Below are positions 4,733 to 61,885 of a stretch of 64,000 nucleotides of DNA, one piece after another (positions within the stretch are counted from its first letter, which is position 1; every line of letters starts with the position of its first letter). The stretch comes from Rugalucina vietnamica. Lineage: Eukaryota > Mollusca > Bivalvia > Lucinida > Lucinidae. The DNA is taken from the NCBI GenBank assembly GCA_964017185.1, contig OZ024876.1, positions 17,310,226-17,374,225 on the forward strand, given 5' to 3'. The position numbers and the translations under genes are program-made. The notes below the pieces were generated by a model. The model saw nothing but the letters and a program-made list of their open reading frames with translations, was not told where the DNA came from and did no database searches.

Positions 4733-5650
4733 GGATGTTCGCTGCCAACATTTGACATTTCGGAACTTCCGGTTTTTATTTTGTTGAATATCTCGTAAAC
4801 GGTTGCAGATATTTTCCTAATAGTCTATTTTTGAATACATATTGATGATATGATTTGAACGAGTCATGAAAATGGTCAATCTAAGGAACTTCATTTTTTC
4901 ATCCCGTTTTCTGTTACTTTTTTGAAAATTTTGTGTCAGCAAAATTTAGGGAGTAGGATTAAAATTGAATGGTACACAACTATAAATTACTTGCACTGAT
5001 TTGATGTTTAATTTAGCAAAAGTAGATGTATACAATGTCTTCTTTATCAGTACTTTTTTTGGTGTGCTAGTTTTAAAATTTTGGGTGGTTTTATGAAATA
5101 GGGTGTTAGAAGAAAAACGGTCGAAAAAAGGCTTAAAATGGCGATGTTTAAGTTGTTGGTTCTCTCTTATTTGCACACTACCCTATATTTTTCATTCTTT
5201 TATTCGAATAATATGAACAAGTTCTATGTTGTGTGAAAATGCAAGAAAAAGTTTGAATCTACAAATATGGAGTTGAAACATTTATAAATATTGATTTTTT
5301 TCGACTTTTCAAGTTAGGGGGTAGAGTTGTTTAAAAAGTCGAAAAAAATTGTAATCCACTTCAAGATGAAAATTTATGTTTTTTAGGTTCAAAATAGACA
5401 GTGTTACTTAAACAAGCATTCGTGATGTATCGTTCGTCCAGGAAGGTATATGTGAAAGAATTGAAAATTAAATTATTTTTGTAATTTTCAAACGCGTTGT
5501 TTAGAGGTCTCATTCAGAGCCCTGTAGCTCGAAAAAATGCACACTTCCCTATATTCATTTTGTTTTCATATGTCTTATTTTATCTTTTTGAATCAAAAAA
5601 GAGCGGTTAGAAAAAAAGTTTGGATACTTTTTTATTGGAAGCGTACATCC
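4733..5650. mobile_element. TTAA-flanked non-autonomous DNA transposon
   Basis: The terminal inverted repeats are short, GGATGTTCGC at the left and GCGTACATCC at the right. TTAA sits directly outside both (4729-4732 and 5651-5654), as expected for a TTAA-targeting transposon such as the piggyBac group. No transposase frame is present. A second, similar copy starts at 63194 and runs out of the window. The superfamily is inferred from the target site only. Confidence 0.7.
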
Positions 5651-11715: not shown

Positions 11716-13010
11716 TTTTTAGCTCGCCTGCACGAAGTGCATAGAGCTATTGTAGTCACCTCGGTCGTCCGCGTTTACGTGTACGTCCGCGTCCGTGTCC
11801 GCGTCCGCGTCACACTTTTGGTTAAAGTTTTTTAGAAGTCTATATCTCTTGACCATGTTGATGGATCAAGTTGATACTTTGCATGTTGATAGATATTGGT
11901 CTGAAGTTTTACGCAGTACCATCATGACCCACCCTGGGTGACCTTGAGGTCAAGGTCATGGACTTAGAAATTTTGTGTTTAATTTTTTGGTTAAAGTTTT
12001 TGTAAGTCAATATCTCTTGACCATATTAATGGATTGAGTCGATACTTTGCATGTTGCTAGATATTGGTCTGAAGTTTTACGCAGTACCATCATAACCCAC
12101 CCTGGGTGACCTTGAGGTCAAGGTCACGGACTTAGAAATTTTGTGTTTAAGTTTTTGGTTAAAGTTTTTGTAAGTCTATATCTCTTGACCATATTGATGG
12201 ATTGAGTTGATACTTTGCATGTTGCTAGATATTGGTCTGAAGTTTTATGCAGTACCATCATGACCCACTTTCGGTGACCTTGAGGTCATGGTCACAGACT
12301 TAGAAATTTTGTGTTTAAGTTTTTGATTTAAGTTTTTGTAAGTCTATATCTCTTGACCATGTTGATGGATCAAGTTGATACTTTGCATGTTGATAGATAT
12401 TGGTCTGAACTTTTACGCAGTACCATCATGACCCACCCTGGGTGACCTTGAGGTCAAGGTCATGGACTTAGAAATTTTGTGTTTAATTTTTTGGTTAAAG
12501 TTTTTGTAAGTCAATATCTCTTGACCATATTGATGGATTGAGTCGATACTTTGCATGTTGGTAGATATTGGTCTGAAGTTTTATGCAGTACCATCATGAC
12601 CTACCCAGGGTGACCTTGAGGTCAAGGTCACAGACTTAGAAATTTTGTGTTTAATTTTTTGGTTAAAGTCTAAATCTCTTGAACATGTTGATGGATAGAG
12701 TTTATACTTGCATGTTGATAGATATTGGTCTCAGGTTTTATGCTGTACATCACAACTCACCTGGATGACCTTGAGGTCAGGGTCACGGACTTGGAAGTTT
12801 TATGTTTAAGTTTTGGTTAATGTTTTTATAAGTCTATATCTCTTGAACATGTAGATTGATCAAGTTGATACTTTTCATTGGTCTGAAGTTTTATGTTGTA
12901 CCATCATGACCCACCTGAGTGACCTTGAGGTCAAGGTCATGGGTCATAGATTTTAACAGATGTAGTGGCAAAGCACAAGTCAGGCGAGCTACGCTGTCCT
13001 GCGACAGCTC
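11716..13010. mobile_element. AGCTCGCCTG-ended element carrying a tandem array
   Basis: The left end TAGCTCGCCTG pairs with the right end CAGGCGAGCTA. Each end has a further small hairpin (CTGCACGAAGTGCA at the left, GCTGTCCTGCGACAGC at the right). The interior is almost entirely the 168-bp array. No coding frame exists. It entered a SINE between its A and B boxes. The ends resemble those of the AGGTGAGCT-tailed GGTCA-rich family, so they may be related. Confidence 0.65.
11820..12960. repeat. 168-bp tandem array, seven units
   Basis: TGACCTTGAGGTCA recurs at 11939, 12107, 12275, 12443, 12611, 12766 and 12920: four intervals of exactly 168 bp, then 155 and 154. Each unit carries CTTGACCATRTTGATGGAT, GATATTGGTCTGAA and TTAGAAATTTTGTGTTTAA. 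Most units contain TGACCTTGAGGTCAAGGTCA, an inverted pair of extended nuclear-receptor-type half sites. Confidence 0.9.
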
Positions 13011-17834: not shown

Positions 17835-19285
17835 ACCATATCACATATATTAGAGATATTGTGCATTTCATACATCAACAAAGTATATTCCAATTCGATT
17901 CTCAGGAGATGACTTATATAAGCCATACAGCTTTCTGTCTAATCCTGTTTCAACATGAGATTTTTGTACATGTATATATTATTGTTTCTCTAATAATAAA
18001 TATTGTTTAAACCAACCCAAGGCCATGATTTATATAAACTATAAAGGGCCAGAGCTCCCAATGCTACATACCAAGTTTCATTGAAATCAGTCCACCTATT
18101 CCAGAGAAATTTATTTTTAAAGGATTTTACAACATATATGGGAATGGCGGCCATCTTGGTCATGTGACCTGGACCATTTATACAAACTTTGGTTCCCCTT
18201 CCTAAGGATAGCACATATAAAATTTGGCTTTGATTGGTGCAGTGGTTTCTGAGAAAATTTAGTTTTAAATATAATATGTAAATGACCTTTGGCCAATGTC
18301 AAGAGATGACATTGAACTTAAATACTCATGGGACTTCATTAACTCAATAAGTTGTATGTATGTACCAACTTTCAGGTCACAGGCCACAAAACGTTCTGAA
18401 AAATCCAATGTTTTCCATTGAGAAGCCTATGTGACCAATGTTGACTTTGCCATAAAATAGGTCAAGGTCAACCCAAGGTCATGATTTATACAAACTATGA
18501 TGGGCCAGAGTCCCCGATGCTACATACCAAGTTTTATTGAAATCGGTCCAGCAGTTCCAGAGAATAAGATTTTTTAAGGTTTTTACCATATTTGGGCATG
18601 ACAGCCATCTTGGCCATGTGACATAGACCATTTATATAAACTTTGATTCCCCCTTCTTAAGGATACCACATTTAAAATTTGGCTTTGATTGGTCAAGTGG
18701 TTCCCGAGAAAATTAATTTTAAAATTTATTATGTAAATGACCTTTGGCCAGGGTCAAGAAATGACCTTGACCTTGAATACTCCTAGGACTTCATTTAATC
18801 AATAAGTTATATGTATCTACCAACTTCCAGGTCACAGGCCAAAAAACTTCATGAAAAATCCAATGCTTTCACTTTTGTCCATTGAACAGCCTATGTGACC
18901 AAAGTTGATCTTGCCGTAAAATAGGCCAAGGTCAACCCAAGGTCATAGTTCATACAAATTAGGTGGGCTAGAGTCCTCAATGCTATATACCAAGTTTCAT
19001 TGAAATCGGTCCACCGGTTCCAAAGAAGAAGGTCTTTTAAGGTTTTTACCATATATGGGCATGACCGCCATATTGGTCATGTGACATGGACCATTTGTAT
19101 AAACTTTAGTTTCCCCTTCCTAAGGATGCTCCACATGAAGTTTGGCATTGATTGGACCAGGGGTTTCAGAGGAGATCTTTGAAAAGTGTGAACGACGACA
19201 AAGACGACAAAGACGACAACGACAGGCGACGGAGCATGGCCATCCTATAAGCTCACCTTTTGAGCCTTCGGCTCAGGCGAGCTAA
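17510..19285 (+). mobile_element. GGTCAAGGTCA-rich dispersed element, long copy
   Basis: The head ACCAGATGACCAATTGGTCC and the hairpin tail TGAGCCTTCGGCTCA are both present, so this copy looks end to end. The interior holds about three diverged modules with CATCTTGGTCATGTGACCTG, CCAAGTTTCATTGAAATC and AGGTCAAGGTCAACC. A CT microsatellite at 17749-17834 sits inside. No protein is encoded. A shorter copy follows with no spacer. Confidence 0.75.
17749..17834. repeat. (CT)n/(CA)n microsatellite
   Basis: About 34 CT units with one break, followed by seven CA units. Serine-leucine frames across it are artefacts. Confidence 0.97.
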
Positions 19286-52655: not shown

Positions 52656-52661
52656 TTTGTA
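52656..52661. other. Target site duplication TTTGTA, left copy
   Basis: Directly outside the left terminal repeat; the identical TTTGTA is at 56975-56980. A 6-bp duplication is the known Polinton/Maverick size. Confidence 0.9.
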
Positions 52662-52675
52662 AGTAGTAATGGCAT

Positions 52676-52800
52676 GCACTCTGGCGCCTTTTTCTGAAAA
52701 CTTCTAGCGCCTTTTTATAGCGCCATTTCAAATAAGCGTAGCGCTAGAAATGGCGCTATAAAAAGGCGCTAGAAGTTTTCAGAAAAAGGCGCCAGAGTGC
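52676..52800. repeat. Perfect 53-bp-arm palindrome in the left terminus
   Basis: GCACTCTGGCGCCTTTTTCT starts one arm and its exact complement ends the other, around a 19-bp loop containing AAGCGTAGCGCT. It lies 14 bp from the element end. Confidence 0.93.
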
Positions 52801-52867
52801 GCACCCTGGGTCTCAGTTTAAAAATGAACTAGCTAAGTTGCATGTGTAGGTAAGTATCCTTGAGTTA

Positions 52868-53135
52868 AGACAAGCCTGCACATCTGCTCATCTGACCTGC
52901 ACATCTGCTCATCTGCACATCTGCTCATCTGCACTGCTCATCTGCACATCTGCTCATCTGCACATCTGCTCATCTGCACATCTGCTCATCTGCATATCTG
53001 CTCATCTGCACATCTGCTCATCTGCACATCTGCTCATCTGCACATCTGCTCATCTGCTCATCTGCACATCTGCACATCTGCTCATCTGCACATCTGCTCA
53101 TCTGCTCATCTGCACATTTGCACATCTACACATCT
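52868..53135. repeat. CATCTGCT/CATCTGCA 8-bp tandem array (left)
   Basis: Roughly thirty 8-bp units, each containing CATCTG, with scattered slips. The mirror array is at 56480-56755. Confidence 0.95.
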
Positions 53136-53819
53136 ACACGCCTACACATCTTTAGAGACTATGAGATAACTGACATAGTCAAGTTTTTCTGTAGGTAAGT
53201 TCCATTACGAAATTAAGAAAGGGCCTTTTTCCTCTAGTGTTCCTGGGTAGACGTATTTGATTTTGCAGTAACATTCACATCTACACAAACATAGAAACTT
53301 CAAGTAAAATGCCCCTGTGTTTTATTATTATTCACAGATAAGTACAGGTCATTAAAACTTTATATAACTGAAGCTTTCAAAGATGATTAAAATTTGTGAA
53401 TGGAAATTTGCATATGGAAATCCATTCTCATATCAAAAGTAAGAAAAGTGTTGCAATTATTTTATTGAATGTAATACAATTTACTTAAATATCACAGTTT
53501 CTAATTAAAAAGAAAATAAATAAACACATTGTTTTGCTTGAATATTCACAGAAAAATTTTATTAATTTCATAGTTGATATATTTGTACGTTCAAGGGGAA
53601 CTATCTGTATTGGTTTTTCTGAGAAAAGTAGGTAAGCATTTCCAGAAAATTATAAAACTGAAAGTAGATAATTTTCGGAAAACGACGCATGAATGAAAAT
53701 CGACAAAAGATGATGTTATATACAGTTTTGCATTTAAATCAAACTGATATAAAGCATTTGCATTTCTGAAGTTATCCATTCACTCAAGTAGTACTGGCAC
53801 ATTCTGTAGTTCTTCAAAC

Positions 53820-54662
53820 ATGAAGGATTTTTACATGACATTACTAAGTGACAGTTCTATGAACATGTTCCCATCAAATAAACAGTCTGAATTTACTGTA
53901 AGATTGGATCATCCTATTAAAATTGACGTGGAAAGCTGGGAGGTTGCCTTGGTTGAAATTGCAACACCATCTGAAGTTCTCAATATAACAGAAGAAAACA
54001 ACTATTTCTTTTTGACTTTCCTAGACCAATCCAGTTTACGCAGAGTTGGAAATCAAAACATCACAGACATATGTAGCAGTAAAAATGGCTGCTATAACTT
54101 CAAACTAACAATTCCAACTGGAAATTATGAGTCACATGAATATCTAGCTGAAGAAATGCAGAGCTCCATTGACAACTTTGAAAAAGGCATACTGAAAAAA
54201 TTCAATGCTCACATTACTATGACATATGATCATTTGAGTCAACGTTTCAAAATATCAGCCCAAAACGAAAGGCTGGTTAGGCTTTTATTCCCAAAACCAT
54301 TTGCTCAAATCTTAGGATTAGATTCATCATTTGTCGAAAAGCCTATAGGAAATGAGCAAAATGTGTTTAAGTTCAATGCAAAGTTGAATCACAATTTTAG
54401 CAACTTTTATGTTTATTCTGACATTGCAAATTTCACTTTTATTGGTGATACTGTAGCACCTATTTTACGAGTTGTTCCATTTCAAAGTAAATCAGATTCA
54501 TATTTCTTCTATAAAGAATTTAAAACTCTGCACTATGTTTCTGTTTCAAAATCTATTGTAGACCAAGTGCACATTACATTAAAAACAGAAAATGGTATGA
54601 TTGTTCCTTTTGTAACAGGCAAAACGATTTTAAAATTACACTTTCGTAGAAAGAAAAACTAG
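53820..54662 (+). CDS. Polinton-like element gene 1: putative minor structural protein (280 aa)
   Basis: Starts MKDFYMTLLSDSSMNMFPSN and continues with FTVRLDHPIKID and WEVALVEIATP. This N-terminal pattern (short polar start, FP, FT.RL..PI, WEVAL.EI.P) recalls a family seen beside Polinton-type elements, which I take as a penton-like or minor capsid candidate. That is recollection plus gene position, not proof. There is no signal peptide or membrane segment. It is the first of three genes and is 56 bp from the next. Confidence 0.5.
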   Translation: MKDFYMTLLSDSSMNMFPSNKQSEFTVRLDHPIKIDVESWEVALVEIATPSEVLNITEENNYFFLTFLDQSSLRRVGNQNITDICSSKNGCYNFKLTIPTGNYESHEYLAEEMQSSIDNFEKGILKKFNAHITMTYDHLSQRFKISAQNERLVRLLFPKPFAQILGLDSSFVEKPIGNEQNVFKFNAKLNHNFSNFYVYSDIANFTFIGDTVAPILRVVPFQSKSDSYFFYKEFKTLHYVSVSKSIVDQVHITLKTENGMIVPFVTGKTILKLHFRRKKN

Positions 54663-54718
54663 TATAAATACATTCTAAGAGTTTGTAAATTATCAGTTTT
54701 GTATAAAACGCTTAAGAG

Positions 54719-55033
54719 ATGACTTCTTTAGAAAAACAGACAAAACAATCCGGCAAGGCTATGGAAGAATCTAAGAAAACACCTGTGACACAGAAACCGA
54801 GTGGATCTCATGCAAGTTATGCACAGATCAGAAACCTTATGAAAAGGTTGAATACAGCTTTGAGTAAAAGGCTTAGAGAGGGCAGACCATCGAAGTATTG
54901 CAGAGTGTGTCGGGCTGAACTGTTAAAAGAATTGTCAGAGAAAAAGAAGAAATCAACAGCTAAACGTCAGAGGATTACAAAGAAACCCAAACTGAGAAGA
55001 ACTAGAACAAAACCAACTCCAGCGATGGTATAA
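54719..55033 (+). CDS. Polinton-like element gene 2: small basic protein (104 aa)
   Basis: Very rich in lysine and arginine, especially the C-terminal third (KKKKSTAKRQRITKKPKLRR). A middle segment has KYCRVCRAELLKEL, a paired-cysteine CRVC. Charge and size would suit a DNA-binding core-type protein, an inference from composition only. Lies between genes 1 and 3 with short gaps, so it is probably co-expressed. Confidence 0.5.
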   Translation: MTSLEKQTKQSGKAMEESKKTPVTQKPSGSHASYAQIRNLMKRLNTALSKRLREGRPSKYCRVCRAELLKELSEKKKKSTAKRQRITKKPKLRRTRTKPTPAMV

Positions 55034-55080
55034 AAGAGACAGACTCAGGATGAATCTCAGTATTCTTCGACTAACCAGCT

Positions 55081-55356
55081 ATGGGTCGATATCAGTGCCA
55101 TCAGTGCGATCGAGTATTTGCCAGATCATTCAATTTGAGAAGACACAAGGACAGTGGTATCTGCAGAGGTGCTCAGGCTAACATGTTAGACAGTGATGAA
55201 GAAAGTGTTATGTCTGAAAGAAGATCACTGGACGATGGAAAAGACATCTTCAGAAAACCTGATCTTGAAGATGTAGAAGAAGTCGATGAGGAAGAAGAGG
55301 ATGAAACTGAAGAAAGTGAGGAAGATGAGGAAGAAGAAGATGAAGAAGAAGAAGAA

Positions 55357-55392
<36 letters not shown>

Positions 55393-55908
55393 GAAGAAGA
55401 TGAAGATGAGGATGATATTGATGATGAGGAGGAGGAGGAACCTCAGAAAATAAAACCATGGGATGTTTTGATGAACATAACGACAGATAAGATGCAAGAC
55501 ATTTTCAACGAAACGGTTGAAAAAGCCCTGCATGAAAATCCTGGCAAAGACGTACAAGAGGCTGAAGAGATAGCATATGATGAACTAAAGCCAAAGTATC
55601 TGTCAGAGTTCGTATCCCGCTACAAGTATCTGACTGATCTCTCAGCTGCACTTAGAAAAGATCCAGTCAACAAGAAAATACAGGAAACAGCTAAACGATT
55701 GAGGGATGAAGAAGATTATGACGAGGACGAATCAAGACTGTATGCCATCAAGAAACGAAAATTCTTGATTGAGAAGAAACTGAATGACTATGACCCACCA
55801 AGCTACGAAGTGGCAGAGGAACATACATCATTGTTGCCACATAAAACACATATGAACAGTATTAACAATAAACCAAAGAGTAGCTATATTCAGGGAAAAC
55901 ACTTGTAA
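55081..55908 (+). CDS. Polinton-like element gene 3: zinc-finger/acidic protein (275 aa)
   Basis: Residues 4-28 form one finger of C2HC type (C6, C9, H22, C28; YQCHQCDRVFARSFNLRRH). Residues about 55-122 are almost all Asp and Glu. A helical, charged C-terminal half follows, with DPPSYE (a PPxY motif) near residue 245 and a basic KKRKFLIEKK just before it. Single-finger proteins of this sort occur in Polinton-type elements. Function unknown; DNA binding by the finger is plausible. Confidence 0.55.
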
Positions 55909-55969
55909 ACGAGAACAGAGGGACGGTCCTAATCCTCTGTTTCATCGTGCATTCATAGTTAGCGGGACA

Positions 55970-55975
55970 AATAAA
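55970..55975 (+). terminator. AATAAA polyadenylation signal
   Basis: Lies about 60 bp past the gene 3 stop codon and is the only AATAAA close behind the gene block, so it probably serves the last or all three genes. Confidence 0.55.
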
Positions 55976-56081
55976 ATTGTTGAAAATGTTATTAAGTCTT
56001 GGGTTTTCATTTCTCCTCTCAGGAGGTAGTAGTAAAGGGTTTAAAGTTTGACAATAACTAGCTGAGTTTTTTGACGCTAAT

Positions 56082-56273
56082 CAATGTTCTCGAGATACGA
56101 GAACATTGAAAAGCCTCAATATATTAGGAAGACGCTATAAAGTTATGCCTTTTGACTAGTTGAGGTCTTGAGATACAAGACCAAGAGACAGTGAAACGCA
56201 TACCACTTTAAAGCCTCTAAGGAAGCTATAGAGTCATGCCTCTAACAGAGTTGAAGTCTTGAGATACAAGACT
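56082..56273. repeat. Three GAGATAC hairpins in diverged repeat units
   Basis: CAATGTTCTCGAGATACGAG with ACATTG (56082-56108), GGTCTTGAGATACAAGACC (56164-56182) and AGTCTTGAGATACAAGACT (56255-56273) are three hairpins sharing the loop GAGATAC. They are 82-91 bp apart, with AAGCCTC and ATGCCT between them, so they are diverged tandem units. Confidence 0.85.
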
Positions 56274-56374
56274 AAGACATTCTTCAGACGCATTCAGCTG
56301 TATAGCAACAGAAACTTCTACATACCCACACATAGCCATCCCAGACAAGTCCAGCAAGTGTCACAATGCGACAA

Positions 56375-56974
56375 GTCTACCCAGGAACAAAAGGCCTTTG
56401 TTAATTTCGTAATGGAACTTACCTACAGAAAAACTTGACTATGTCAGTTATCTCATAGTCTCTAAAGATGTGTAGGCGTGTAGATGTGTAGATGTGCAAA
56501 TGTGCAGATGAGCAGATGAGCAGATGTGCAGATGAGCAGATGTGCAGATGTGCAGATGAGCAGATGAGCAGATGTGCAGATGAGCAGATGTGCAGATGTG
56601 CAGATGAGCAGATGTGCAGATGAGCAGATGAGCAGATGAGCAGATATGCAGATGAGCAGATGAGCAGATGTGCAGATGAGCAGATGTGCAGATGAGCAGA
56701 TGTGCAGATGAGCAGATGTGCAGATGAGCAGATGTGCAGGTCAGATGAGCAGATGTGCAGGCTTGTCTTAACTCAAGGATACTTACCTACACATGCAACT
56801 TAGCTAGTTCATTTTTAAACTGAGACCCAGGGTGCGCACTCTGGCGTCTTTTTCTGAAAACTTCTAGCGCCTTTTTATAGCGCCATTTCTAGCGCTACGC
56901 TTATTTGAAATGGCGCTATAAAAAGGCGCTAGAAGTTTTCAGAAAAAGGCGCCAGAGTGCCTGCCATTACTACT
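56375..56974. repeat. Right terminal inverted repeat of the Polinton-like element
   Basis: About 600 bp, the reverse complement of 52662-53252, with the same order of parts. Ends TGCCATTACTACT, directly followed by the target copy TTTGTA at 56975-56980. Confidence 0.9.
56836..56960. repeat. 53-bp-arm palindrome in the right terminus
   Basis: Same hairpin as at 52676-52800, with the loop in the same orientation relative to the element end and one arm difference (GGCGTC against GGCGCC). Confidence 0.92.
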
Positions 56975-58262
56975 TTTGTATATTTCATGGGCACGTTTCC
57001 GTAATGTGTCTTGAACGTTTTGACCACGATGTCGACATGTCTTATCCCATTCATAACGAATTAACTTATCCATCATTATAATTTGGGTGAATAGAATGTC
57101 ATTTTAAGCATCTTAGCAAAGTTAGGACGCCGCAGACCGTCTGGGGATATACTGTTTGCCTTTATCCCATAAGAAGGACACCAGGCTCATGAGCTTATTG
57201 TCTGACCTACAATGTCGTGCTGGCATCATGATGATGCTAGAAAAGTTCGTGCATACTAGACATCATGGCATTATGGATGATTCTGAAATCGTTTCTCATT
57301 TAAGTAAATCTGCAAATGCCAAATGAGACTAATGCGGCGTGTATTGAAAATATTCAGACAACAGTAAGATATTAAGATCAAAGAGAGATGTCTGATTGCT
57401 TTCATTTTCTGAGACGTTAGACATCGTACATATCAAAACATACGTCATAATTAAGGCATGACAATCTTAGGGATTATCTGTAGTCGCCAGTTTGTTTGAT
57501 CTTTCAAAAGAAGCACGAAACGGAAAATGGATGTTTTAACATATATTCTATAACGAGTTCTATAACGAGTTGCCCAAAGGACAGTTAACTGGTGGGGGGG
57601 GGGGGGTTCAATGAATTTCAAAGTCATCCGTTCTTTCCTGACTAATGTCTGGGTTTTAATTTTAAATTCATTTGAATCAATTCCTGGACATTCTATTTAA
57701 ACGTTATCTTAGATATTATGCCAGCCCTGCAAAAATGACGAACGAAAATTATAAAATAATAATGAGGGCTCTAATGGTATTGTTTAAATGAAATTCTCAG
57801 TGGCCGCTAACTCTGAAGTCGGTGTTGGAATCTAGTTGAAATTTTTAAAAATCCATCCAAGTTTAGTTTTATGCAAGCCGTCCTCGTAACCTGCAAGAAT
57901 ATGAGCATTACGAAAACACGCCCATGCAATACACAGAAAGTTTAAAACATTGTTAAAAATGAAAATTAGTCTCAGTTGACATTTGCAGACTTACTTTAAT
58001 GCAGTCTATGTTTTAAAGCAAAATATGTATACCCCTGTAAGCCCCATTTTTCCTATATAAAAGTGGGGTGTAAGGGGTAAATATTACACGGAAATGTTAT
58101 CCTGATGAAAGTCCTCGTAACATCAGAGAATAGAAAAGCCACTTAAAACTGAAATTCGCTGGTCAGGCGTCTTTACATCATCTCTTGCATTATAAATCTA
58201 TGAGAATAGTCGAAACACTCGATGGGAGCTAACTCAGCAGTTCATAGTCAAATCTCGCCGAA

Positions 58263-59440: not shown

Positions 59441-61885
59441 AAGGTACAAGTAGGCAAAGATCAGGAAAAGGCGCAATCAGAAAAAGATTCCCACTCCAAA
59501 AACCGAGGTGGGAAAAACCAAACTAATAATCAGGTACTTATACCATGAAAACATTTCGTAAGCCGAATGAGCAGCTATTTTCCCAATAGGTGGCCACTCA
59601 GTTACCTTAACTTAACTAAAAATATGAAAACACGCATAAGGCGCCAACAGCACAAAAATATTTTAAACACCAAGACATAAAACAAAAAGAACCACCACAG
59701 AAGTATCGACTTGGAACGATCAGTAACACAAAGTTACTGGCGGGTTTAAATCGATTTTACATGGCCATAACCTCACCCTCAGCTTCTGCAGTGGTTCATA
59801 ACATTTAGTTAGTTCTTCGGTCCTCGTGGTGAATCTCTAACTAGTCAATGAATCATCAAGAACAAACAAATAAATCATGATAAACATCCTGATGAATCAA
59901 AAACCAGGACTCACAGATTGAGTAAGCTGCCCGACGATGGAGATACCTGGGCGCCGAATAACTTACTAACCCCGGAGCAAAAGAAAAACATCAGTTGGAC
60001 CCCGGTGGGCCAAGCAACAAACAAGAAGCTCAGGCCCCAACCAACTAAAATGAATAGTTTTAAGTCGGGGCCATCATAGAGTCTGACGCCCGACCCACCG
60101 GCGTGCAATTAAAGAAGGCAGCATAGTTATCAACCGTGATTGGGTTAAAAACTAAGCATGCAGACTGTCGCATAACATTCAAGTTATAACCTATACGTCT
60201 GTAACGAGTTATGATTTTTCTAATCTGAAAAGAAAAATCATTACTTCCTATAAGTTTCTTAAATTTGTAAACCAAGTCACCATAAAATTCTGGTTCCGAA
60301 AGGCCCTCACTTAAAAGCGTCTTTAACCCAACATTATATTTGGAAATCAATTCATAGTGTCTACGAAAAAATTTAGAAAAGGTTTTTCGAAGTTTATGAT
60401 ACCGATAGCCCTGTTGGAGAAGTTTGGCCGTTAAACATTTATTTCGAGCGTTGAAGTCTGTAACGTGATTGCAGACTCTAGCAAACCTAATAAGTTGCGA
60501 AATGTATACACCATAAGAAGCACGACGAGGAACGTCACCATCCAAAAACGGAAAATTTTCTATATCAAAATCAAAGTCATCGCGCTTATCATAAATTTTA
60601 AAAGAAACAAATCCATTTGCAACAGAAAGATGTAGATCTAAAAAGGGGGCTTCGGTATCCGAGATATTGGCTTTGTTCAACTGTAGTTCAGATGGATACA
60701 TTTGATTGACCATACCTTCAAAATAAGGGTTGTCAATGTTCAAAAGGTCATCAAGGTACCTAGAAGTGGAATTAAAAGCCTCGATAACATCAGCTTGATT
60801 ATCATGGTTAAGAGAATCCATGAAATCTCTTTCGTAGCAGTATAAAAATAAATCAGCTACGAGAGATGCGCAGTTTGTACCCATCGGAATTCCAACAATT
60901 GGTCCCAAATCTAATATAAATATTATCAAGGAGATAGGATAAGGCGTCGCACACATTCTGACATGACCAAAGTGTATACCGACTTTGGTCAGAGGAAGTG
61001 AAAAAAGCCTTTCTGTCATTACATGCCAAATAAAGTGAACCATAGTTTTTTAATGCCCTTTTGAAGGTCCACTCTATCAAATCCAGAAGTTTTTCTTTAA
61101 TTACATTATGTGGTAAAGTTGTATACAGAGTAGAAAAATCATATGTGATCAAGCTCGTCGCACGGAACCCTCTACACTTCAATTTATTGAGCAACTCATT
61201 AGAATTCTCCACTGACCAAAACCAATCTCCATTCGAAGCCCCATACACTGTCTCACAGTATCTTATAACATGAGACTGGATAGGAGTAAGACAGGAAGTT
61301 AATAATTTAGAAAGTTCAGTAGTAGTACAAGAGCTAGAATTTGCAACAAATCCAGCTCTGCATGGTCTTTTGTGAAGCTCAGGCAACCAACACACCGTAG
61401 GAAGTCTGTCTTGGTCTTCATTGACACAAACAGAAAACTTAACAGGTAAATCGCCCAAGTGGGCATTAACCACAGACATTTCATCAGCATCTGTCTCCAG
61501 ATAAGCCCTGGTACCATCAAGCTCCTGTTTTAAGGTGCCAACGCAGTGAAGCCCACAAACAACAACAACATTGTTTGCGGCTTTGTCTGCCGGAACCAAG
61601 ACACTCTTTCTGTGAAACTCTTGGATACCCTGCTTCAAATGCCTAAATGACGATTTAGGTTTAGGAGGTAAAAGATTAGTATTTTGTGAATAAAACTTTA
61701 TACGTTTATCCACGATAGTGAAGATACTTCTTTTCCATTCTTTAAGAGCATTATCCTCAACACCCTCTCGTTTACAACATCGATTACCGCAATCTCCTCT
61801 CTACATTTATCGAAATTGATGTAGGAAGGGAATCTATATTTCGGACCTTTAGAAACAATTTTACGAATTCTAGAATCCGAAATCT
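59441..61885 (-). mobile_element. Penelope-like retroelement, long copy
   Basis: The 3' end is AAGGTACAAGTAGG on the plus strand; the 5' end stops near GAATCCGAAATCT, where it is probably truncated. The pre-insertion site survives in segment A near 49050 (TGTTGTAAGCTACTTATCTG). The minus strand carries a reverse transcriptase region, then a ~620-bp tail of which about nine other copies lie in the window. No GIY-YIG endonuclease domain was recognised. The retroelement class is judged from RT motifs. Confidence 0.85.
60060..61713 (-). pseudogene. Penelope-like reverse transcriptase, disrupted frame
   Basis: Two overlapping open frames cover it: 61713-60853 (286 codons) and 61043-60060 (327 codons). 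The first reads SVLVPADKAANNVVVV, LPELHKRPCRAGF and TYDFSTLYTTLPHNVIKEKL (RT motif A region). The second reads VGIPMGTNCASLVADLF (motif B), STSRYLDDLLNIDN (motif C, catalytic YLDD) and EAPFLDLHLSVANGFVSFKI. Order and wording fit Penelope-like RTs (RYIDD and PMGT motifs) better than LINE RTs. The frame change near 60900-61000 means this copy is inactive unless recoded. The C-terminus is family-typical (CTPVGRASDSMMAPT). Confidence 0.8.

Follow-up and report, generated by a model that had tools for sequence, protein, structure and literature searches.

A compact three-gene element with Polinton-type ends in Rugalucina vietnamica, a likely satellite of Polintons

Results

Structure and gene content of the element

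The window analysed here, a 64,000-bp stretch of the genome of the lucinid bivalve Rugalucina vietnamica (assembly GCA_964017185.1, contig OZ024876.1, positions 17,310,226 to 17,374,225, forward strand), contains a compact element of 4313 bp (52662–56974; positions given without a contig or copy name refer to the window) which is likely to be a member of a family of gene-bearing Polinton (Maverick) satellites. The element is flanked by the 6-bp target-site duplication TTTGTA (52656–52661 and 56975–56980, read directly and by script) and bounded by terminal inverted repeats of about 591 bp on the plus strand (52662–53252, first bases AGTAGTAATGGCA) and about 600 bp on the minus strand (56375–56974), delimited by inverted alignment with each other. 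Inverted repeats of the form AGTAGT...ACTACT (591/600 bp aligned) together with a 6-bp duplication are the Polinton/Maverick type of end, and an earlier note on this DNA had described the Polinton-like ends, the 4.3-kb size and the duplication exactly. Overlooked at that time were a hairpin at each terminus, an 8-bp minisatellite in each repeat and a block of about 490 bp that is common to the element and a full Polinton. The hairpins, each with arms of 54 bp, lie at 52676–52800 and 56836–56960, the left one folding as DNA at −72 kcal/mol against a shuffle mean of −21 (z = −18), and the minisatellites (CTGCACAT/CTGCTCAT) were located with Tandem Repeats Finder at 52876–53151 and 56466–56760. 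A search of Rfam for an RNA gene in the hairpins returned 15 matches, all under the gathering scores, mostly to miRNA models and on both hairpin strands; we take them as an effect of shape and reject an RNA gene.

Three plus-strand frames, all open as the earlier note had read them, are the only sizeable ones on that strand of the element. Gene A (53820–54662, 280 aa) encodes a homologue of a Polinton protein, gene B (54719–55033, 104 aa) a small basic protein, and gene C (55081–55908, 275 aa) a protein with one C2H2 finger, an acidic stretch and a conserved C-terminal domain. The finger, scoring 4.5e-05 and thus just below the Pfam cut-off, and the acidic stretch bear out the zinc-finger/acidic protein that had been proposed; other Pfam matches of C were weaker, proteins A and B returned nothing of note in Pfam, and none of the three frames matched Pfam families of PolB, integrase, ATPase or protease. 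NCBIfam gave no match for A, B, C or the relatives of C described below, PHROGs gave weak matches only (at best 2e-4, for the acidic stretch of C), IMG/VR viral contigs held no relatives of the A sequence, the gene-A alignment or the gene-C alignment, and phage records held no relative of A. The genes are followed by the shared block (55903–56389, plus strand), which includes an AATAAA (55970–55975, plus strand, read directly) that may serve as a polyadenylation signal and is present in the full Polinton too. Three stem-loops with the loop AGATA follow at 56081–56109 (12-bp stem, identical in the full Polinton, L040), 56164–56182 (7-bp stem) and 56255–56273 (7-bp stem).

Copy number and insertion

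Many copies of the element, which the earlier note had proposed to look for, are present in the genome from which the window comes (1.09 Gb, 47 contigs). A 439-base query from the left end has at least 100 matches (40 of 419 candidates scored), gene A at least 139 (138 of 285 candidates scored; 105 of the matches are at least 70% identical), gene B 130 (142 of 142 candidates scored) and gene C at least 150 (150 of 225 candidates scored), the last spread over contigs C1–C17 and C40. At least 84 of the gene-C matches are near full length (at least 147 of 154 residues, at least 92% identity), a count in which dimeric elements enter twice, and 79 of these are free of stops. Twenty stretches were fetched, representing 18 places (one stretch was a duplicate and one copy extended across two), so that 19 copies including that of the window were read, 17 with both ends and two with one end. 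The 6-bp duplication is exact in 16 of the 17 two-ended copies and agrees at 5 of 6 positions in the remaining one. Nine of the 17 measure 3.6–4.9 kb, and the other eight comprise two inverted dimers, a 2.2-kb copy-back form, a copy with an extra inverted fragment (L019) and four copies of 5.8–11.7 kb. Exact duplications in 16 of 17 copies rule out host genes lying between chance repeats, and the copy number and insertions elsewhere rule out a one-off internal deletion, an outcome that the earlier note had named as fatal to its proposal.

Selection on genes A, B and C

The ratio of nonsynonymous to synonymous polymorphism (pN/pS) is 0.40 for A (95% bootstrap interval 0.24–0.73), 0.37 for B (0.22–0.71) and 0.51 for C (0.33–0.79), computed over copies with at least 95% of the gene aligned and the frame open over at least 95% (A 13 of 18, B 22 of 25, C 21 of 25) and with dimers entered twice. 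With one half of each dimer removed, the ratio for variants common to two or more copies is 0.21 for A, 0.24 for B and 0.74 for C, and that for singletons 0.49, 0.67 and 0.38, respectively. The C-terminal domain of gene C is moreover clearly conserved across families, described below, with overall identity near 30%. A MITE, which would be short and non-coding, is also ruled out by the three open frames and their pN/pS below 1.

Gene A and a full-length Polinton partner

An element of 18.5 kb on contig C4 (35060783–35079292), here referred to as the helper, is an autonomous partner with matching ends in the same genome. Its PolB frame of 1085 aa matches PF03175 at 4.6e-48, its integrase carries rve (6.5e-13) with a chromodomain, its ATPase is A32/FtsK-like (3.1e-05; all Pfam), and its protease frame has a weak adenovirus-protease match. 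Full-length elements that combine ends of this kind with polymerase and integrase, which had been suggested as the means of identifying a helper, are therefore present. The helper tip reads AGTAGTAATGGG followed by a long hairpin, its terminal repeats span about 265 bp at 94% identity, and its flanks, TAAGAG and TAAGTG, are alike at 5 of 6 positions. Comparison with the element of the window qualifies the expectation of identical ends: the first 11 bases are identical and the inner tip is homologous, whereas the hairpin arms differ in sequence.

A homologue of gene A in the helper is followed by a 141-aa frame and then by a 434-aa, capsid-like frame. According to section 5 of PMC4028283, the Polinton penton gene (PX) adjoins the capsid gene or, more often, stands one gene apart, and the homologue occupies this reported position, one gene upstream of the capsid-like gene. 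Based on position and the literature, protein A is probably a penton (PX), and the existence of its Polinton relatives removes the objection, raised in advance by the earlier note, that none of the three proteins might have any. The association is general. PolB was searched with 86 of 155 candidates scored (111 matches, collapsed to 56 places) and the capsid-like gene, with that of a second Polinton as the query, with 97 of 152 scored (97 matches). Among the matches listed and by coordinates, 34 divergent gene-A copies (46–52% identity, none with a stop) have PolB within 20 kb in 32 cases, a capsid-like gene within 5 kb in all 34 and the shared 3′ block at a distance of 3.5–3.8 kb in 31, while a listed PolB match within 20 kb is lacking at all 71 of the 105 close gene-A matches that were tested.

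Genes B and C have no relative among the frames of the C4 helper read. Among the matches listed and with a limit of 25 kb, the 130 gene-B places have no PolB or divergent gene-A place as a neighbour, 133 gene-C places none of the 56 PolB places, and 134 gene-C places none of the 97 capsid-like places; the same holds for the 84 family-1 gene-C matches (family 1 being that of the window element), which have no listed capsid-like gene within 25 kb. The same listed matches thus give no sign of gene C inside full Polintons.

On contig C8 (29445541–29463062) two helper gene-A copies and two 3′ blocks stand in mirror orientation about 17.5 kb apart with no PolB nearby among the matches listed, probably an inverted dimer of the right half of the helper. 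On contig C14, PolB matches form a mirror pair at 42150106 and 42156460.

The shared 3′ block and exchange of ends

The block that begins at the end of the last gene is 96% identical to the 3′ end of the C4 helper (488 bp), while gene A of the element is only 52% identical to that of the same helper, with saturated synonymous sites (pS 0.79) and a dN of 0.43. Among the best 40 of 186 block candidates, 31 lie at divergent gene-A copies, seven in satellites and two in neither, and across 22 satellite copies the block is 92–98% identical, bar one short piece at 85%. In a tree of 8 helper and 21 satellite blocks, from which the short piece was dropped, helpers and satellites are intermingled, neither kind forming one clade in any of 200 bootstrap trees, and a single helper clade is rejected (p-AU 0.011). 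Saturation in gene A combined with intermingling in the block indicates that the genes have long been separated while the ends were exchanged, so that family 1, judged from these comparisons, has an old line of descent of its own and has swapped 3′-end sequence with the helper. A direct trace of such exchange is copy L038 (C6:2101884–2111880), whose left hairpin is of the satellite type and whose right hairpin (near 4950) is of the helper type.

The three stem-loops of the block have different stems and one loop, AGATA, and are the same in the helper. Stem-loops with this loop and a stem of at least 7 bp occur nowhere else in the 64-kb window and are absent from the other Polinton and family-2 and family-3 stretches scanned. 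The shared block is our leading candidate for a packaging or replication signal.

Terminal hairpins

Among 36 ends examined (34 satellite, 2 helper), the left end of L036 is without a normal hairpin and that of L033 has a shorter one. An alignment of 16 satellite ends, one per copy and omitting L033, comprises 58 predicted pairs, 21 of which show pair-keeping changes on both sides, with 90 two-sided pair-keeping cells against 4 one-sided ones. Covariation is 0.285, above all 500 shuffles (0.089), which ignore the relatedness of the copies, and above every slid control (at most 0.047). Over the first 150 nt the two ends of a copy have a median identity of 0.987, compared with 0.833 between copies (17 copies, 136 pairs), the lowest within-copy values being 0.60 (L038), 0.65 (L036) and 0.82 (L033); near-identical ends within a copy are expected from the copying of a linear molecule with self-pairing ends. 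The halves of the inverted dimers are 99.6% (L020) and 99.3% (L027) identical, a modest margin in the case of L020, since its nearest other copies tested reach 98.5–98.9%. Exact duplications flank both dimers and the copy-back form (L021), and these forms were therefore inserted as such.

Covarying hairpins, inverted dimers and the copy-back form point to linear replication. The scarcity of one-sided changes can be read as the product of a hairpin-copying step or, alternatively, of the exchange of whole tips, as in L038. The hairpin arms (52676–52800 and in other copies) are built of repeated units with cores such as GCGCC, GCGTC and GGCTCC, and these cores change together across several units and both arms, like a switching recognition tag.

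Gene C in other compact families

The class is wider than the one family considered in the earlier note: gene C extends it to two further compact families. Family 2 is represented by a 4949-bp element (L043; C10:24283440–24288388) that encodes a gene-C relative and a 114-aa frame, ends in 1.8-kb repeats at 99.9% identity with tips AGTAGTGAT, and is flanked by an exact CCCACA duplication. A 320-base query from its tip (10 of 10 candidates scored) matches an element on contig C7 at 87–88% over bases 82–320, and the first 15 bases of the right end of that element, at 11260214, are the same as those of the family-2 tip. Similarity to the C4 helper identifies PolB-, ATPase-, integrase-, capsid- and protease-like frames in the C7 element, of about 18.4 kb, which also has a weak gene-A match and is by content a full Polinton. 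The family-2 114-aa frame resembles a 134-aa frame placed just before the C7 capsid-like gene (32% over 76 aa, E 3e-11 in a two-sequence comparison). A 13-kb element on contig C5 (9617627–9630625) shares the family-2 tip and holds a capsid-like gene.

Family 3 is represented by an 8344-bp element (L047/L048; C12:20469281–20477624) with an exact TATAAT duplication, tips AGTAGTTGT and one large internal frame, a gene-C relative of 283 aa. Its tip has 68 matches (40 of 40 candidates scored), from which ten elements of 4.5–10.4 kb were paired by eye, nine of them with gene C inside, along with one stretch of 14–18 kb on contig C16 that also contains gene C; no PolB lies near any of these 11 places among the matches listed. 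On the matches listed, gene C thus looks like a hallmark of satellites in this genome. At its C-terminus the gene-C relative in L047 (4041–4892) is extended by a segment similar, as judged by eye, to part of the 114/134-aa gene, possibly a gene fusion.

Elsewhere in the window

Tandem arrays occupy 11816–12939 (168-bp units) and 18013–19155 (455-bp units), and two long overlapping minus-strand frames at 60060–61800 resemble those of an element bearing a reverse transcriptase.

Discussion

A satellite of Polintons

Matching ends, a nearly identical 3′ block, exchange of tips and dispersed insertions with exact duplications strongly support mobilisation of family 1 in trans. The element also has genes of its own that are under constraint and lack a relative in the helper read, as expected of a satellite, less clearly so in the case of C. 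The satellite-like lifestyle suggested in the earlier note is thus supported by the copies and by the partner; dependence on the helper, packaging and the hijacking of capsids are inferred.

We posit that the PolB of the helper Polinton likely replicates the satellite, starting at its ends, in the form of linear DNA, and that the helper integrase likely inserts it with a 6-bp duplication. With less certainty, the 3′ block and its three AGATA-loop stem-loops may be a packaging or replication signal recognised by helper proteins, and protein A may be a satellite-specific penton fitted into helper capsids, where it could favour satellite particles or alter their size or entry. More speculatively, protein B could condense DNA, and protein C could bind the ends or shift helper expression toward the satellite.

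Several observations weigh against this interpretation. Common ends on their own are expected of any non-autonomous transposon. Protein A has no useful Pfam or PDB match, its profile finding weak unrelated PDB entries only (E at least 0.2), and the 434-aa frame of the helper, which we take to be the major capsid protein from its size and place, likewise has no database match beyond weak unrelated ones in PDB (E at least 0.2). Constraint on C within family 1 does not appear clear-cut, its ratio being higher for shared than for singleton variants, the reverse of the order expected under constraint, and 5 of the 18 gene-A copies aligned are disrupted. Most forks of the block tree are weak, and the strongest forks alone are compatible with one origin. 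The searches for PolB and the capsid-like gene cover 86 of 155 and 97 of 152 candidates, respectively, and a stretch of 14–18 kb on contig C16 (23507273–23525659) has family-3 tips with gene C inside, either a larger element or an insertion.

The ends and 3′ block held in common with a full Polinton would equally be expected of any DNA transposon, including an ordinary non-autonomous Polinton derivative in which an internally deleted copy was amplified in trans and the leftover genes are functionless passengers. We regard such an origin as unlikely: the helper read contains nothing related to B or C, no gene-C place lies near PolB or capsid-like genes and no gene-B place near PolB or divergent gene A among the matches listed, gene A has diverged to 52% with saturated synonymous sites even though the block remains at 96%, pN/pS is below 1 in all three frames, and gene C recurs in two families with different ends. 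For the same reasons, namely the lack of relatives of B and C in the helper read and the saturation of A, the description of the element as a reduced Polinton in the earlier note is misleading.

Alternatively, the element could be a minimal autonomous transposon in no need of a helper, with C (or B) as a replication or integration enzyme that has escaped recognition. Gene C is the sole large frame inside the repeats of the family-3 element read, and the 11 family-3 places have no PolB nearby among the matches listed. However, C offers a C2H2 finger and weak matches only and no enzyme domain, a PolB-bearing element has ends and 3′ block in common with family 1 and has traded sequence with it, and the reported Maverick type likewise has AGT-AGT ends and a 6-bp duplication. 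Together these points make autonomy very improbable. It is also conceivable, by analogy with endogenous virophages reported in PMC10945749 to mitigate giant-virus infection, that the copies act as a domesticated or commensal brake, an anti-Polinton defence in which A would be a dominant-negative penton and C a repressor. Gene A, which is related to a helper gene yet diverged from it and under constraint, would suit such a role, but the spread of the family resembles that of a selfish element, with gene C on contigs C1–C17 and C40 and exact duplications in 16 of 17 copies, and we consider a defensive function unlikely.

If family 1 is a satellite, gene C and its two further families suggest a broader hypothesis. 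We tentatively propose, as a possibility of somewhat less than even likelihood, that such elements form their own class of Polinton satellites, with at least three compact families that have different Polinton-type tips and gene C in common. Two of these carry a diverged relative of a Polinton gene from beside the capsid gene (penton-like gene A in family 1 and the 114-aa frame in family 2). The satellites would pirate the replication, integration and capsids of the helper and use a vertex protein of their own to steer assembly, and the hairpins, with their jointly changing arms, would record a hairpin-copying step of replication.

Comparison with known systems

Whether Polintons form virions in animals is an open question on which the satellite bears. 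Polintons/Mavericks are described in PMC4028283 as elements of 15–20 kb that encode capsid proteins and have been proposed to be viruses, and as of PMC8097293 their particles had not been observed. If no particles were formed, it would be difficult to account for a penton-like gene under selection in an element without polymerase, integrase or capsid gene, and the satellite would therefore be indirect evidence for, and a handle on, Polinton particles. If this is true, the relation of helper and satellite known from phages and from the virophages of giant viruses would extend to the transposon-viruses of animals. No description of gene-bearing Polinton satellites was found in searches limited to openly licensed PMC papers, outside of which most subscription papers and Repbase lie. 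Short elements tend to be discarded as incomplete, which may be why such satellites have escaped notice; one survey dropped Polinton-like elements below 10 kb (PMC4028283).

The element resembles autonomous Polintons/Mavericks in its 6-bp duplication and its end motif, (AGT)2//(ACT)2 ends with such a duplication having been reported for vertebrate Mavericks (PMC8097293), and in the relatives that gene A has in the Polintons of this genome. It differs from them in its size of 4.3 kb, in lacking PolB, integrase, ATPase, protease and capsid genes, and in having B and C, for which the helper read has no counterpart. Non-autonomous Polintons and MITE-like derivatives are known as Repbase entries. 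Like these, the element has ends in common with an autonomous element and probably moves in trans; unlike them, it encodes genes of its own that are under constraint, two of which are unrelated to any frame of the helper read.

Phage satellites such as P4 and SaPI share cis signals with their helpers and keep replication or morphogenesis genes of their own. The element likewise shares putative cis signals with its helper and retains its own genes, but resides in an animal nuclear genome, has transposon ends and would exploit a protein-primed helper. Tlr elements of Tetrahymena have, like the element, tandem repeats in their terminal repeats. As presented in PMC4028283, they resemble the element in combining Polinton-like capsid genes with a transposon but, unlike it, carry integrase, ATPase and capsid genes. 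Virophages such as Mavirus, as described in PMC3671162, offer an analogy as double-stranded DNA parasites of a larger DNA virus with a capsid-related gene; in contrast to Mavirus, the element would have an integrated Polinton rather than a giant virus as its helper and is without a major capsid, polymerase or integrase gene of its own. Transpovirons, reported in PMC7031253 as 7-kb DNA molecules travelling with larger DNA viruses, differ from the element, which lies integrated between target duplications and shows kinship with its helper in its ends and one gene. As non-autonomous transposons and phage and virophage satellites are already known, the novel part would be a satellite of an animal Polinton with conserved genes of its own, and the gene-C class stands a fair chance of proving more than a variant of the known kinds.

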